From Selenomonas sp. (GTDB lineage Bacteria; Bacillota; Negativicutes; Selenomonadales; Selenomonadaceae), in the NCBI GenBank assembly GCA_017635515.1, contig JAGBLH010000223.1, positions 1 through 34,166 of the forward strand: DNA of 34,166 nucleotides. The letters run 5' to 3'. Position numbers and translations under genes: made by a program. Numbering within the stretch: the stretch's first letter is position 1; the number at the start of each line of letters is the position of its first letter. Shown here in pieces: positions 11,419 through 16,911 of the stretch. Under the pieces are notes generated by a model. The model saw nothing but the letters and a program-made list of their open reading frames with translations, did no database searches and was not told where the DNA came from.

Positions 11419-12957
11419 TTACTTTCCGGGGAAGAATAGGGCGAGGGTTTCTTCTTTGGTGGGCTTCCCTTTATACGCCCCCACGATGAAGCACACCAGG
11501 GAAACTGTCAGCCCCAGCACAATCCTGTGCAGGCCGAAGGGGGACCAGTTCAGGGCGGCGGCCAGGGAGGTGGCCCAGTCGGCGGAGGTGAGGAGCAGGA
11601 GGATCTTGCCCAGCATGGGCAGGATGTAGATGAAGGTGCCCCCCGCCATGGCCAGGATGGCACCGGCCTTGTTGGCCTTGCGCCAGAAGAGGCCCAGGAG
11701 CAGCACCCAGAAGAAAGCTGTCTCCAGCCCGCCGAAGGCGAACATATTGATGATCCAGATCAGCGAGGGCGGGGTCACGGCGATGAAGAACACCAGCACG
11801 CCGATAATGCCCGTGGCGGCCATGGACAGCAGCCGGAGTTTCTTGTCCGAGACTTTTTCGCCCTTGGTCTTCTTGGCGTGGAGATAGATGTCCTTGATGA
11901 TGGCCGAAGAAGCCACAATCAAGAGGCCGGAAATGGTGGAGATGGAAGCCGCCAGCGGCCCGATGATGGCAAAGCCCACCAGCGAGGGGGGCATGGCGGT
12001 GACGATGGTCTTGGGGATGATGTTGTCTACGCCGCCATGGCTTTCCAGCGGCCCTGTCAGCACCCCGTGGGCCAGAATCCCCGTGAAGTTGATGCCGATA
12101 TTCATGAAGCCCACCACTACAGTGCCTATCAGCATGGCCTGATGAAGTCCCTGGGTATCCTTGTAGCTGATGCCACGCACCACGGACTGGGGCAGGGCGA
12201 TGGTGCAGATGCCCACCAGAATCCACTGGGTCAGGTAGAGGGTCAAAGGCATATGCCCTGCCGATAGTGGCTCGAACATCTCGGGATGATTGGCATGGAG
12301 GTTATCCATGATGGCCATGTAGCCGCCGCCTGCCTGCAGGACGTAGTAGAGCAGCAGCACGATGCCCACCATCATGACGATGGCGCAGCAGGTGTCCGTG
12401 AGGGCCACGGCACGGAAACCGCCGATGGCGGTGTAGAGCACCACCGTCAGGCCGAACAGCAAGAGGCCCATCTCGTAGCTGTACCCCGTGACGGCAGCAA
12501 AGAGCTTGGCTCCCCCTACGAACTGGGCGGTCATGGTGGCGGCGAAGAAGATGACGATGATGAAAGCCGCCAGGCCCGCCAGCCTGTCGGAGCCAAAACG
12601 CGCCCTGATGATGTCCACCACGGTGACGGCCTCCAGCCTGCGGGACAGCAGCGCCACCCGCTTGCCGTAGACCCCCAGCACCAAAAAGATGGCGGTGACC
12701 TGCACCACGGCCATGTAAATCCAGCCGAAGCCTATCTGCCAGGCCATGCCCGGCCCCCCCACGAAGGAGGACACGGAACTGTAGGTAGCCACGGTGGTCA
12801 TGGCCAGCACGAAGCCGCCCAGATTATGATTGCCGATAAAATAATTTTTCACAAAGCCTGTGCCGGAGCGGCTGCCCTCACGTCGGACGTAGAAGCCGAT
12901 GCCGATCATGGCGCCCATGAACACGAGCAGGGGCAGAAGGGCCGAGAGATTTCCCAA
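11419..12957 (-). CDS. panF: Sodium/pantothenate symporter
   Basis: About 512 residues with about 13 membrane segments, sodium:solute symporter family. It imports pantothenate with Na+ for coenzyme A synthesis. SSS-type features include VATYSSVSSFVGGPGMAW near residue 60, GLLLFGLTVVLYTAIGGFRA and PLAASISTISGLLIVASS. Pairing with a YhdT-type gene directly upstream is the E. coli panF arrangement and supports the substrate. Start choice: the frame also has GTG at 12966, overlapping the yhdT stop as GTGA, but AAGGAG overlaps that GTG. It is 8 nt from TTG 12957, which is therefore preferred. Either start implies coupling to yhdT. Confidence 0.92.
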   Translation of the reverse strand: MGNLSALLPLLVFMGAMIGIGFYVRREGSRSGTGFVKNYFIGNHNLGGFVLAMTTVATYSSVSSFVGGPGMAWQIGFGWIYMAVVQVTAIFLVLGVYGKRVALLSRRLEAVTVVDIIRARFGSDRLAGLAAFIIVIFFAATMTAQFVGGAKLFAAVTGYSYEMGLLLFGLTVVLYTAIGGFRAVALTDTCCAIVMMVGIVLLLYYVLQAGGGYMAIMDNLHANHPEMFEPLSAGHMPLTLYLTQWILVGICTIALPQSVVRGISYKDTQGLHQAMLIGTVVVGFMNIGINFTGILAHGVLTGPLESHGGVDNIIPKTIVTAMPPSLVGFAIIGPLAASISTISGLLIVASSAIIKDIYLHAKKTKGEKVSDKKLRLLSMAATGIIGVLVFFIAVTPPSLIWIINMFAFGGLETAFFWVLLLGLFWRKANKAGAILAMAGGTFIYILPMLGKILLLLTSADWATSLAAALNWSPFGLHRIVLGLTVSLVCFIVGAYKGKPTKEETLALFFPGK

Positions 12958-12962
12958 TAGAT

Positions 12963-13226
12963 TCACTCCTTATCTGATTTCACAAAAGGCTTGGTCAGGG
13001 CCATATCCTTGAAGACGAACTTCACCAGGATGAAGGTGAGCAGGATGGCGAGGAGCCAGATGCCCACGGTGCCTGTAAGTGCCCAGAGGGGCAGTCCCAG
13101 AACCATCACTTCGCTGGCTGAGAGCCCAAAGCCCAGCACGCACCAGAGCACGATGAGCAATAAGAGCACCAGCCCGGTGGCACCAGCCTCCCGGCAGATC
13201 TGCCGGTATTTTTCTTTAGGGGTCAT
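12963..13226 (-). CDS. yhdT: YhdT-family small membrane protein, partner of PanF
   Basis: 87 residues. ATG 13226 has a perfect AAGGAGG 5 nt upstream. Two hydrophobic helices (GLVLLLLIVLWCVLGFG and GTVGIWLLAILLTFILV) and a charged tail match the YhdT family, encoded just before panF in enterobacteria. Its role is unknown; a small accessory subunit of the symporter is the usual guess. Its stop overlaps the upstream candidate start of panF. The 27 nt upstream hold only the end of the terminator of the preceding gene, so its promoter is unclear. Confidence 0.85.
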   Translation of the reverse strand: MTPKEKYRQICREAGATGLVLLLLIVLWCVLGFGLSASEVMVLGLPLWALTGTVGIWLLAILLTFILVKFVFKDMALTKPFVKSDKE

Positions 13227-13253
13227 GATTGCCTCCTTGATAGTCGCAAACAA

Positions 13254-13284
13254 AATAAAAAGCGCTTTTCAGCGCTTTTTATTT
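13254..13284 (-). terminator. Terminator at the end of the degenerate kinase gene
   Basis: A perfect 12-bp stem (AATAAAAAGCGC, 13254-13265, with 13272-13283) with a 6-nt loop and A/T flanks on both sides overlaps the stop codon of the kinase-like gene. It lies only 28 nt upstream of yhdT and may also attenuate read-through into yhdT-panF. Confidence 0.8.
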
Positions 13285-14190
13285 TAACTCAAATGCCTTG
13301 TTTTTGCCATAGCTATTCCCAACATTGAAAAACAGCTCTATCTCCGCTGCGTGTCCTTCGCTGGTGCGGCGGAAGTTCAGGGTGCCGCCCATGAGTTCTG
13401 CCAGATGTTTGGCGAAGGGCAGATCCAGAGAGGAAATGGGAGATATGTTGGAGGTATTTTCCTGTAGGGGGAGCGTCTCGCTCAGGGGGTCGAAAAGCTG
13501 CTCGTTGGAAGGAACCTCATAGTCTGTGTCGTTGGCGGAGATGCGCAGCCAGGTGACGATGCGGTTTTCCCCGGAGCGGATGGATTCGGCGGTGAAGTTG
13601 ATATTGCAGCCTTTGGGCAGGTGGGTGGCGATGGCATGGCCCAGATGGCCCAGCATGGAGCAGAACTTGCCCTTGTCCACGATGATTTTGTAATCCTGCC
13701 AGCTTTTGATGTCCAGCAGGAGATGCTGCTGGTTGGAGGAAAGGAAAGTGCGCATGGTGCTGATGGCTTCTTCCAGCAGCAGGCGGCTGGACACGGGTTC
13801 CGGGTGGAGGGTCAGTTCCCCTACCTCCATGGAGGCGTAGTCTTTCAGATTGCTGATGGACTGCAGGAGCAGCTGCATGCGGGACTGCAGCTGGGCGGCT
13901 CCCTTATGGGCTGCAGCGAGATCCTGGCTTTGGGAGATCTTTTCCGTCAGCTCGTTGATGCCGCGGGTGGGAGTCTCCAGATAGTTCACATAGCGGGAAA
14001 TGAAAAAATGCTGCCGCTTGATGACCTGGCGGGCAGTTTCGGAGCGCACACGGCTGGCCCGGCTTTGCTCGGAGAGCACCGCCAGGCGCTGGCCCTGGCG
14101 CCATTTTCGGTAGAAGAAGATGGCGGCCAGCAGGGCCGTGAGGTTGGTCAGCAGGAGCAGGCAGACAGATAGCAAAGCAGTTAAATCCAT
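13279..14190 (-). CDS. Membrane-anchored histidine-kinase-like protein lacking catalytic motifs
   Basis: 303 residues. ATG 14190 follows AGGTG by 6 nt. One N-terminal membrane segment (about 4-26) leads to a helical dimerisation-like region and an ATPase-like fold. Each catalytic signature is altered. The H-box reads FISRYVNYLETP, with Asn69 where the phosphorylated His should be. The N-box asparagine is His185 (LGHLGHAIATHLPKG). The G1 DxGxG reads DTDYEVP (221-227). The G2 glycines read LDLP (255-258) before FAKHLAELMGGTL. The overall fold is still traceable, so this looks like a pseudokinase scaffold or sensor rather than a random frame. It lies 48 nt downstream of the GGDEF gene. Confidence 0.75.
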   Translation of the reverse strand: MDLTALLSVCLLLLTNLTALLAAIFFYRKWRQGQRLAVLSEQSRASRVRSETARQVIKRQHFFISRYVNYLETPTRGINELTEKISQSQDLAAAHKGAAQLQSRMQLLLQSISNLKDYASMEVGELTLHPEPVSSRLLLEEAISTMRTFLSSNQQHLLLDIKSWQDYKIIVDKGKFCSMLGHLGHAIATHLPKGCNINFTAESIRSGENRIVTWLRISANDTDYEVPSNEQLFDPLSETLPLQENTSNISPISSLDLPFAKHLAELMGGTLNFRRTSEGHAAEIELFFNVGNSYGKNKAFELK

Positions 14191-14238
14191 AGACAGCACC
14201 TATCATTTCAAAAGTAAATACACCAAGGAAGGGGGAGC

Positions 14239-15258
14239 TTATGGCTCCCCTGCCTTGCTTTCTTCTGGTGTTTTCTCCGTGGGGGCATCCTTGGCCACAT
14301 AGCAGTTGCGGCCCTTGGCCTTGGCCTCGTAGAGAGCCTGGTCGGCTCGCTCGTAGGCGGTGAGGAAATCGTCAAAGGTGTGGAGCATGGTGGCGCCGAT
14401 GCTGATGGTGACGGGAGAGGCGATGCCCTCTGTCTCCGAGGCCTTCTTCACGCCCTTATTGAGCCTTTCGCAGAGGGTGGAGAGGTAGCCGATGCTGGGC
14501 AGCCCCGGCAGGTAGGCGCAGAATTCGTCACCGCCCAGGCGGCCGATGACATCATCTACCCTGAGATGCTCCTTGAGCACCCTGGCTACGATGCGCAGCA
14601 CCTGGTCGCCGGTCTGGTGGCCGTAGAGGTCGTTGAATTTCTTGAAATTGTCGATATCCAGGATGATGAAGGCGCCCAGACTGTTTTCCGAGAAGTCCGA
14701 CATAGAGTCGGACAGCATGCGCCGCACGGTGCCGCTGTTGTAGACATGGGTGAGGCCGTCGAGCTGGGCATGGAGAGCCAGATGCTCCTCCCGGTGCACC
14801 TCCTGGGTGATATCTGTGAGGATACCGATGATGTAGTCGATTTCTTCGTTTTTCGTGTAGTAGATGCGGTTGGTGACCCGATAGGTGCCGAAAGAGCCGT
14901 TGGCGCGGGTGAGCTGCATGCGCTGCTGGTCAGCCTCCGGGGTCATGGCCTGCAGGAGGTTCTGGCAGCTTTCCTGCTGCCCGTTTTCTTTGTGGCAGGC
15001 TTCCGTGAAGTCCTCAATCAGCTCCGGCAGGCCCATGAGATGGGAGCAGGCGGTGGAGAGCCGCATGGTGTCCTTGCGCATGTCAAAGACAAAGGTGCAG
15101 AGGTCGGTGAAGGTCAGCAGCTGGTCCATGCCGTCCTTGAGCTTCCGCTCCCGCTTCAGCACTTGATGGAAATACCAGACGGTGCCCAGCAGGGAAAGGA
15201 TCCAGAAGATGAAGAAGCCAAAGAGGAGCAAGGGGACATGGATTTCTGTAGGTATCAT
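14239..15258 (-). CDS. Membrane PAS-GGDEF diguanylate cyclase
   Basis: 339 residues. ATG 15258 has AAGGG 6 nt upstream. A single N-terminal membrane helix (about 8-30) and a short coiled coil precede a PAS-like domain (about 50-155, ending in the PAC-like GILTDITQEVHREEH). The C-terminal GGDEF domain has an intact active site RLGGDEF (242-246) and metal-binding LDIDNFKKFND (200-210). An RxxD inhibitory site (RVDD, 233-236) lies at the standard five-residue spacing. It should make cyclic di-GMP from GTP with product inhibition. It is followed by the kinase-like gene in the same direction. Confidence 0.92.
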   Translation of the reverse strand: MIPTEIHVPLLLFGFFIFWILSLLGTVWYFHQVLKRERKLKDGMDQLLTFTDLCTFVFDMRKDTMRLSTACSHLMGLPELIEDFTEACHKENGQQESCQNLLQAMTPEADQQRMQLTRANGSFGTYRVTNRIYYTKNEEIDYIIGILTDITQEVHREEHLALHAQLDGLTHVYNSGTVRRMLSDSMSDFSENSLGAFIILDIDNFKKFNDLYGHQTGDQVLRIVARVLKEHLRVDDVIGRLGGDEFCAYLPGLPSIGYLSTLCERLNKGVKKASETEGIASPVTISIGATMLHTFDDFLTAYERADQALYEAKAKGRNCYVAKDAPTEKTPEESKAGEP

Positions 15259-15363: not shown

Positions 15364-15969
15364 TCAGTTTACTGGCTGTTTTTGCTCTTGGCTCTTGGCC
15401 GGATAGATGCGCTCGTGGAGGCGGCTGGCGAGAAGGGCATCGTCCATGGCCTCACGGACGAGGTAGGCGGCACTGGCGCGGGTGGAGGTTTCACCGTCGT
15501 AGAAACGGGAGGCTCCTTTTTTCACCACTTCGTCCGTGCGGGCATCGTAAACGTAGAGCATGACGGAGGCATAGCTGTGGTAGATGGTGCCCCTGCGCCA
15601 GCTCATGCGCTGCCACTCCTGATAGCCGTCCAGGATGGGGAGCACCACCATATCGGCCTGCAGGCGGGCGGCCAGGGGGCGGAGCAGTTCCTTGTCCTTG
15701 GCCTTGGGGCCCTTTTCCCGCCGCACCTCGCTCATGGCCGCAGCCAGTTCATTCCCCGGCAGATATTCCACCATCTGCAGGTAGCCGTTCAGGGGCACAT
15801 GGGTAGCCCTGGAAACCCGCGCATTCAAATCCATGAGCACCTCACGAGGGCACCAGGTGCGGTCAATGACGGGATACTGCGCCAGCCGCAGGGGAGCGGC
15901 TTCGGTGCAGGAGGCCAGGCCTAGCAGCAAGACTGCCAGCAAAGGAATTATAATGTGAACTCTACGCAA
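15364..15969 (-). CDS. Lipoprotein of unknown function
   Basis: 201 residues. TTG 15969 is chosen because AGGTG lies 6 nt upstream and the product then starts RRVHIIIPLLAVLLLGLASC, a complete lipoprotein signal with lipid-attached Cys21. The longer frame would overlap the upstream gene. The mature part has alternating hydrophobic stretches (LQADMVVLPILDGYQEW, SVMLYVYDARTDEVV) like periplasmic beta/alpha domains. No family can be named with confidence. It begins 22 nt after the YitT-like gene, so the two form an operon. Confidence 0.75.
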   Translation of the reverse strand: MRRVHIIIPLLAVLLLGLASCTEAAPLRLAQYPVIDRTWCPREVLMDLNARVSRATHVPLNGYLQMVEYLPGNELAAAMSEVRREKGPKAKDKELLRPLAARLQADMVVLPILDGYQEWQRMSWRRGTIYHSYASVMLYVYDARTDEVVKKGASRFYDGETSTRASAAYLVREAMDDALLASRLHERIYPAKSQEQKQPVN

Positions 15970-15991: not shown

Positions 15992-16870
15992 TCAATGGAT
16001 AGCCTTCTTCTTGAACCTGCCGCCGATAATGTCATGTACGGCGTTAATCGTGACAAAGGCATTCTCGTCCTTCTCCAGGACGATTTCCTTGAGCTTATCA
16101 ACTTCCAGCCGTGTCACCACGCAGTAGAGCACTTCCTTGCTCTCCCCCGTGTACCCGCCTGCCCCGTGGAGCAGGGTCACGCCACGGCCCAATCTGTCGT
16201 TGAGGGCTGAGGTGATATCCGCGTGGCTGTTGGTGACTATCATCACGGCGTAGGACTCGTCCAGGCCCTTGATGACCACATCGATCATCTTGGAGATGAC
16301 GAAGTAGGCCACCAGTGAGTACATGGCCTTGTCCCAGCCATAGAGCAGGCCTGCGCTGGAGAGGATGAAGAGGTTGATGAACATGACCACTTCGCCCACG
16401 GAGAAGACGGATTTCTTGTCCATGATGATGGCCACGATCTCAGTGCCGTCCAAGGAACCGCCTGCCCTGATGATGAGGCCCACGCCCACGCCGTCGATGA
16501 TGCCGCCGAAGATGGCAGCCAGGAAGGGGTCAGTGGTGACGGCGGGGATTTCTTCCATGACCTCTGACCAGCCCGCCAGGAAGCAGATGGCTACCATGGT
16601 GGCGATGGCGAAGCTGCGGCCTATCTGCTTGTAGCCCAGATAGAGGAAGGGCAGGTTGAAGAGAATCAGGAACATGCCGATGCTGAAGCCTGAGAGGGTC
16701 TGGGCCATGATGGAGAGGCCCACTACACCGCCGTCAATGACTTCGTTGGGTATGAGGAAGAGTTCCAGTCCTACGGAGGCGATGAGGGCGCCGATGAAGA
16801 TGGTGAGGTACTTTTTGAAGTAGAAGGAGAACTTGCGTTGTTGCTTGATTTGAGGTTTAGGGTTGGTCAT
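15992..16870 (-). CDS. YitT-family membrane protein (DUF161 plus DUF2179)
   Basis: 292 residues from ATG 16870 (MTNPKPQIKQQ), chosen because GGAG lies 9 nt upstream. The ATG 15 nt further upstream has no ribosome binding site. Five to six membrane helices, with family motifs FLIPNEVIDGGVVGLS and IIRAGGSLDGTEIVA, are followed by a soluble C-terminal domain (SKEVLYCVVTRLEVDKLKEI...DENAFVTINAVHDI) typical of DUF2179. Family members are abundant in Firmicutes and of unknown function, possibly transporters. It leads the minus-strand group of lipoprotein, GGDEF and kinase-like genes. Confidence 0.88.
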   Translation of the reverse strand: MTNPKPQIKQQRKFSFYFKKYLTIFIGALIASVGLELFLIPNEVIDGGVVGLSIMAQTLSGFSIGMFLILFNLPFLYLGYKQIGRSFAIATMVAICFLAGWSEVMEEIPAVTTDPFLAAIFGGIIDGVGVGLIIRAGGSLDGTEIVAIIMDKKSVFSVGEVVMFINLFILSSAGLLYGWDKAMYSLVAYFVISKMIDVVIKGLDESYAVMIVTNSHADITSALNDRLGRGVTLLHGAGGYTGESKEVLYCVVTRLEVDKLKEIVLEKDENAFVTINAVHDIIGGRFKKKAIH

Positions 16871-16911
16871 TGGGTCACGCTCCATTCGTTGTTGGGATTC
16901 TTCTATAGGAT

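Follow-up and report, generated by a model that had tools for sequence, protein, structure and literature searches.

A pseudo-histidine kinase gene paired with a diguanylate cyclase gene in Selenomonas and relatives: a candidate phosphotransfer-free receptor

The usual link between histidine kinases and c-di-GMP enzymes is phosphotransfer to a receiver domain. In the NspS-MbaA system, the input protein NspS is free in the periplasm, while MbaA carries GGDEF-EAL domains and a periplasmic part of its own; no kinase core takes part, unlike in the gene pair described here. As in our pair, solute-binding input and membrane GGDEF protein come as two separate proteins (excerpts of PMC8967002 and PMC8079147). 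In CdgH of Vibrio cholerae, two tandem periplasmic PBPb domains feed a diguanylate cyclase, as in the sensor-bearing pairs reported below, and ligand changes the dimer (excerpt of PMC5431781). CdgH is one chain, whereas our pair has separate sensor and cyclase chains, the sensor chain carrying a dead kinase core, and the form found in the window lacks the sensor domains altogether; being two genes with no solute-binding domain (SBP), the window pair falls outside the CdgH type, in which SBP sensor and GGDEF domain share one chain.

Reuse of the histidine kinase fold without kinase activity, as sensor or scaffold, is described for DivL (excerpt of PMC4211667) and for other pseudo-histidine kinases (excerpt of PMC12632262, from which we take the term and its definition), and the protein studied here (denoted pHK) resembles them in this. 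DivL acts on the response regulator DivK~P, whereas the constant partner of pHK is a cyclase, and we noticed no regulator beside its gene. The ChrS pseudokinase is a catalytically dead kinase that acts via protein contacts, as we propose for pHK; it is a laboratory-evolved frameshift of an active kinase and works via its paralogue HrrS (excerpt of PMC9491836), whereas pHK belongs to an old, conserved family. Our search of the open-licence literature found no paper describing a cyclase whose partner is a pseudo-histidine kinase. The available part of a 2024 study describes a Caulobacter hybrid kinase without the His in a c-di-GMP context and mentions no paired cyclase (PMC11481889), the word 'pseudokinase' is nowhere in the available text of a 2022 review of how c-di-GMP networks sense signals (PMC8846402), and c-di-GMP signalling in Selenomonas is described as unstudied in the part seen of a 2026 paper (PMC13339959). 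Tandem-SBP cyclases and pseudo-histidine kinases are each known; their joining appears to be the new part, and the pair offers a handle on c-di-GMP signalling in Selenomonas.

The window, the whole stretch of DNA analysed here (34,166 nucleotides), comes from a Selenomonas genome close to S. ruminantium; two named genomes gave matches, Selenomonas ruminantium and an uncultured Selenomonas assembly. The features of the locus are as follows.

13252..13278, minus strand: intrinsic-terminator-like hairpin with a T run, directly 3' of the pHK stop (from the sequence)
13279..14190, minus strand: pseudo-histidine kinase (pHK), 303 aa (profile matches and alignment; membrane helix and coiled coil by eye)
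14239..15258, minus strand: membrane-anchored PAS-like and GGDEF diguanylate cyclase (DGC), 339 aa (Pfam, motifs)
15364..15969, minus strand: signal-peptide protein, here a predicted lipoprotein, a neighbour outside the co-conserved pair (family search)
15992..16885, minus strand: YitT family membrane protein, a neighbour outside the co-conserved pair (Pfam YitT_membrane, E 1e-63)

The minus-strand order is thus YitT, signal-peptide protein, DGC, pHK, followed by a DUF997 gene and a gene which, from its sequence, we take to encode a sodium/solute symporter. DGC lies 48 nt upstream of the pHK start. A consensus scan did not list the hairpin at 13252..13278, and the signal-peptide protein matched nothing in Pfam or NCBIfam.

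From its N- to its C-terminus, pHK consists of one membrane helix, a conserved basic coiled-coil linker, a degenerate DHp domain and a degenerate catalytic/ATPase domain. The sequence-only reading had called it a kinase-like protein that lost its catalytic residues and kept its fold. Profile-profile alignment (residues numbered from the ATG at 14190) places Asn69 at the H-box position, 'FFISRYVNYLETP' against the canonical 'FLSSMSHDIRTP', confirming that the phospho-His is lost. None of the G1 and G2 glycines is left in an alignment with canonical kinases. The N-box Asn is gone as well, as had been claimed, but the residue named in its place, His185, depends on the alignment: hhalign gives His185 and MAFFT Ala186, neither of them Asn. 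Compared with five canonical kinase cores, pHK gave an hhalign match of 97.4% (E 1e-11) over most of the DHp-CA core, and profile searches matched NCBIfam TorS (E 4e-5) and the PDB kinase 7z8n_A (E 8e-6), whereas a Pfam scan recognised no domain in it. These matches indicate that the DHp-CA core shares descent with histidine kinases, and the kinase fold is probably retained. Judged by its residues, the protein does not count as a histidine kinase, which is defined by the phospho-His, the N-box Asn and the G1/G2 glycines for ATP binding; it would count as a pseudo-histidine kinase, that is, a conserved kinase core without one or more kinase functions. AlphaFold2 models reached a mean pLDDT of 43 for pHK, computed from 3 sequences, and of 57 for DGC, and neither model was used. 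Pfam found no SBP domain in the window proteins.

The neighbouring cyclase is intact, as the earlier reading had it, with a complete GGDEF domain (Pfam PF00990, E 3.1e-38) and an RxxD site ('RVDDVIGRLGGDEF'), and its active-site motif makes it a predicted c-di-GMP synthase; a PAS_9 match is weak (Pfam, E 0.005). Neither Pfam nor NCBIfam matched a receiver domain in DGC, and by eye we noticed no receiver-domain partner among the neighbours read, so the pair does not have the receiver-bearing partner of a two-component system. The window genome has 13 GGDEF matches and 3 PilZ matches.

We then asked how the two genes fare in relatives, since separation of the genes would have spoken against the proposed module, and normal boxes in homologues of the kinase-like gene would have spoken for simple decay. 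Both genes are present in five of the six genomes of the genus, and the sixth (G169) has neither. All five orthologues lack the N, G1 and G2 sets and four lack the His, the H position reading N, K, R, N and H across the five members. Two stretches of the genus pHKs are conspicuous: the linker 'GQRLAxLSEQSRASRVRxETxRQVIKRQxFFISRYV' is nearly invariant, and the C-terminal 'SLxLPFAKHLAELMGG' is invariant except for one residue. Between the window gene and the four others, dN/dS was 0.23-0.32 for pHK, 0.17-0.26 for DGC and 0.05-0.08 for YitT. The dN/dS of pHK and the nearly invariant linker and C-terminal stretches indicate that the window pHK is a pseudokinase under purifying selection, looser than that on its neighbours. 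A terminator-like hairpin with a T run stands behind pHK in all five pair-bearing members.

These data bear on the idea that pHK is a kinase gene heading for loss. As a decaying gene would, the genus form is without sensor domains and changes more quickly than the genes around it, its identity being 65-88% where the SSS symporter has 89-96%, yet its frame is open in five of five members, the dN/dS is that given above, long linker stretches are invariant, and the kinase set is lost in every lineage of the pair family. We therefore regard simple decay as very unlikely, and the degeneracy does not stem from recent decay or from decay in one strain.

Searching the class with the cyclase N-terminus gave 39 places in 34 of 380 genomes (five of the places in the genus), and all 39 loci were read. 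At 16 of them a pHK follows the cyclase on the same strand. Fifteen of these have a kinase-like profile match close behind the cyclase gene, except for a gap of ~590 nt in G173; in the sixteenth (G171) pHK begins at a contig end and its remainder lies on another contig. Measured in 11 pairs, the gap between cyclase and pHK was -4 to 48 nt, with a 4-nt overlap in three of them. The other 23 places have no adjacent pHK, indicating that the cyclase subfamily can work alone. Full-length pHK matches above 500 bits occurred in ten of 79 genomes (G171 summed over its two contigs), all of them beside this cyclase, and the next full-length match scored 291 bits. Outside the genus, the pairs belong to four genera of the family (g22, g23, g27, g28) and to one genome of another family (f32), and there they sit elsewhere, for example near gyrB or gyrA. 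The pair thus appears to be older than the window genus.

Some candidates were set aside. A class-wide search with a 7-row kinase profile (A4) matched 347 of 380 genomes and was too unspecific to serve as family evidence, the matches being mostly ordinary kinases by rank and length. A second G163 protein (C7) is an ordinary hybrid kinase with intact boxes, and in G122 a canonical, intact kinase lies ~600 nt upstream of the cyclase match, in the other order.

In the eleven pHKs outside the genus, the open frame is 717-983 aa long and encodes SBP_bac_3 domains as well as a membrane helix and a kinase-like core (Pfam was run on five of the eleven). Both solute-binding domains are found in ten of them with the full-length profile, G171 in two pieces; in G182 the first is partly lost. 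The window pHK shares descent with these solute-binding forms. All 16 family members are degenerate, so that no homologue in the pair family has full normal boxes: in the alignment table the His is missing in 15, the N-box Asn in 15, a complete G2 in 15 and G1 in 14. G163 has Glu for His and has lost the first N-box Asn, while the second Asn, G1 and G2 are retained (Pfam HATPase_c, E 1e-19); G182 retains G1 (HATPase_c, E 6e-13); the remaining nine outside the genus have no complete box, and Pfam made no kinase call in the three of them scanned. Since Pfam misses the kinase in the window pHK and in three of the five long members it was run on (all but G163 and G182), such proteins are likely annotated as mere solute-binding or hypothetical proteins.

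The same table bears on phosphotransfer hidden in another His. G168 has a His at the old position, the only one among the 16 family members, His61 is present in four of the five genus pHKs, and G163 keeps an ATP site; but the N, G1 and G2 boxes are missing in G168 and the His in G163, and the two halves occur together in no member, which makes such a route extremely improbable.

The ten next-ranked full-length matches served as a control that was not chosen by the His motif. Nine of them (within L137-L146) are tandem-SBP hybrid histidine kinases from the same bacterial family, with an SH[DE][IL]RTP motif and a REC Asp motif, and one is a protein with an EAL motif. These unpaired kinases, the nearest unpaired relatives by the full-length profile, share the pHK architecture up to the kinase core; unlike pHKs, they keep the H box and the receiver motif, and the five that were aligned retain the N and G boxes too. 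A tree splits fifteen pHKs from twelve canonical kinases with support 97/94, on long branches; the canonical kinases in it were picked by their His motif (12 of 17 loci passed), and their canonical state proves nothing alone. The cyclase tree, also with long branches, has two groups, one with the genus, G163, G182 and unpaired cyclases, and one with the rest. The pairing label needs three changes on it, so a single origin is not shown, and partner losses or several gains of pairing are possible.

We also looked at what the tandem solute-binding sensor feeds elsewhere in the class. In 20 stretches chosen by ORF length, it is fused to GGDEF in 12 (L150-L153, L156-L161, L163, L168) and shares one frame with an EAL motif in three (L154, L162, L167); the remaining stretches comprise one canonical kinase and four without a nameable output. 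These GGDEF and EAL fusions indicate that the sensor elsewhere feeds c-di-GMP enzymes directly, and it appears to have been swapped among c-di-GMP enzymes and kinases.

Together, the two-gene conservation, the tight spacing, the lack of a receiver partner noticed nearby and the sensor-GGDEF fusions lead us to favour, as rather probable, a phosphotransfer-free receptor in which pHK controls the membrane-bound PAS-GGDEF cyclase by direct contact. With its membrane helix, its DHp-like coiled coil and its dead ATPase domain, pHK would be a dimeric input and scaffold subunit, which would touch the cyclase, coupled to it through membrane helices and coiled coils, and thereby govern local c-di-GMP; the switch by protein interaction proposed from the sequence would then act in this way. 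Because the pHKs of most family lineages carry two periplasmic solute-binding domains, the ancestral role was probably to sense a small outside solute and to relay the change to the separate cyclase by way of the pHK membrane helix and coiled coil. The pHK form of the window genus has no outer sensor domain; these domains would have been lost there, rather than being originally absent, leaving the short pHK as the cyclase's partner in the membrane and the cytoplasm. Weighing against the favoured reading are the 23 cyclases with no adjacent pHK, the ~590-nt gap in G173, the missing sensor of the window genus form, the three changes that the pairing label needs on the cyclase tree, and a PNAG context confined to one genome.

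Two other readings keep pHK as an active protein. One holds that pHK does not touch the cyclase and that its target is a true histidine kinase or response regulator encoded elsewhere, which it titrates or joins in mixed dimers, adjacency reflecting co-regulation only. Described pseudo-histidine kinases do act on other two-component proteins, DivL by binding DivK~P and the ChrS pseudokinase by dimerising with HrrS (excerpts of PMC4211667 and PMC9491836), and canonical hybrid kinases are present in the window genome; still, reading the loci by eye, we noticed neither a response regulator nor an intact kinase next to the pair, and the neighbour that recurs at all 16 loci is the cyclase. This reading seems to us unlikely, though it is the best placed of the alternatives. 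According to the other, which we judge still less likely, the dead ATPase domain is a reader and not the driver: it binds c-di-GMP that the cyclase has produced and hands it on, as feedback or effector. The ATP site no longer has its former task, and the C-terminal stretch is nearly invariant in the genus. CckA, a histidine kinase, binds c-di-GMP. Yet no known c-di-GMP motif was noticed in pHK, and the periplasmic sensors on other pHKs point to an input role.

The favoured reading, contact between pHK and the cyclase, can be extended to a receptor class in which a histidine-kinase chassis without phosphotransfer, made up of periplasmic solute sensors, membrane helix, DHp coiled coil and ATPase domain, is the allosteric input subunit of a separate membrane DGC, present in several genera of one family and in a second family of the class, with loss beginning at the His (G163 keeps its ATP site), going on to the ATP site and ending with the sensor; we give this wider proposal an even chance. 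If true, a two-component receptor has been rewired into a contact-based one, with a dead kinase core between solute sensor and cyclase, and living intermediates are at hand in G163 (His lost, ATP site kept) and the window genus (sensor lost).

The sequence-only reading had gone further and suggested that the pair might form, together with the lipoprotein and YitT, a four-gene module signalling from envelope to c-di-GMP. The two-gene core of that proposal, a conserved pseudokinase with its DGC, held up, and the four-gene envelope module did not. The four genes are co-directional, and the order YitT, signal-peptide protein, DGC, pHK is found in all five pair-bearing genus members (one with an extra gene). 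However, the four are not co-conserved, as the upstream two are widespread without the pair: the signal-peptide protein occurs in 121 of the 189 genomes of the family, most of which lack the pair, and in the outgroups G143 and G161 it stands beside YitT with two other genes in the pair's place, PLP sulfhydrylase-like and M48 peptidase-like by eye. The lipobox Cys is present in only two of five orthologues, and in other genera the pair sits at other places. A four-gene module is therefore highly improbable. The signal-peptide gene adjoins YitT in the window and in L052-L058, L059 being a short contig without YitT. The extra gene, in G168 (L056 7027-7809), is TauE/SafE-like permease by eye and lies between the signal-peptide gene and the cyclase.

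Among the paired cyclases, GGDEF is present in 16 of 16. The RxxD site reads RVDD or RVND in the genus and is also present in G163 and G182; it is missing from the other nine (L114-L122), though these have GGDEF. In G184 (L114 5835-6839) an in-frame stop splits the cyclase frame, with the N-terminal part on one side and GGDEF on the other; the pHK of G184 is open. Several of the L114-L122 loci adjoin genes that by eye are recF/gyrB-like.

PgaCD of E. coli is a c-di-GMP-controlled synthase and needs c-di-GMP. In G163 (L085 4931-12086) the pair, whose cyclase and pHK overlap by 4 nt, directly follows genes for a polysaccharide deacetylase/GHL13 protein, a glycosyltransferase and PgaD, the order of pgaB-pgaC-pgaD, and is followed by a gyrA/parC-like gene. 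This locus may be a PNAG operon under c-di-GMP control, here in a Negativicutes bacterium. The PNAG gene context of the pair was seen in this one genome only, and a PNAG link in the window species was dropped, as PgaD was not found in the window's genome.

Downstream of the pair in the window (11419-13253), the gene for the DUF997 small membrane protein overlaps or adjoins the sodium/solute symporter gene, and this couple is kept in all five pair-bearing genus members and also in G143 and G161.
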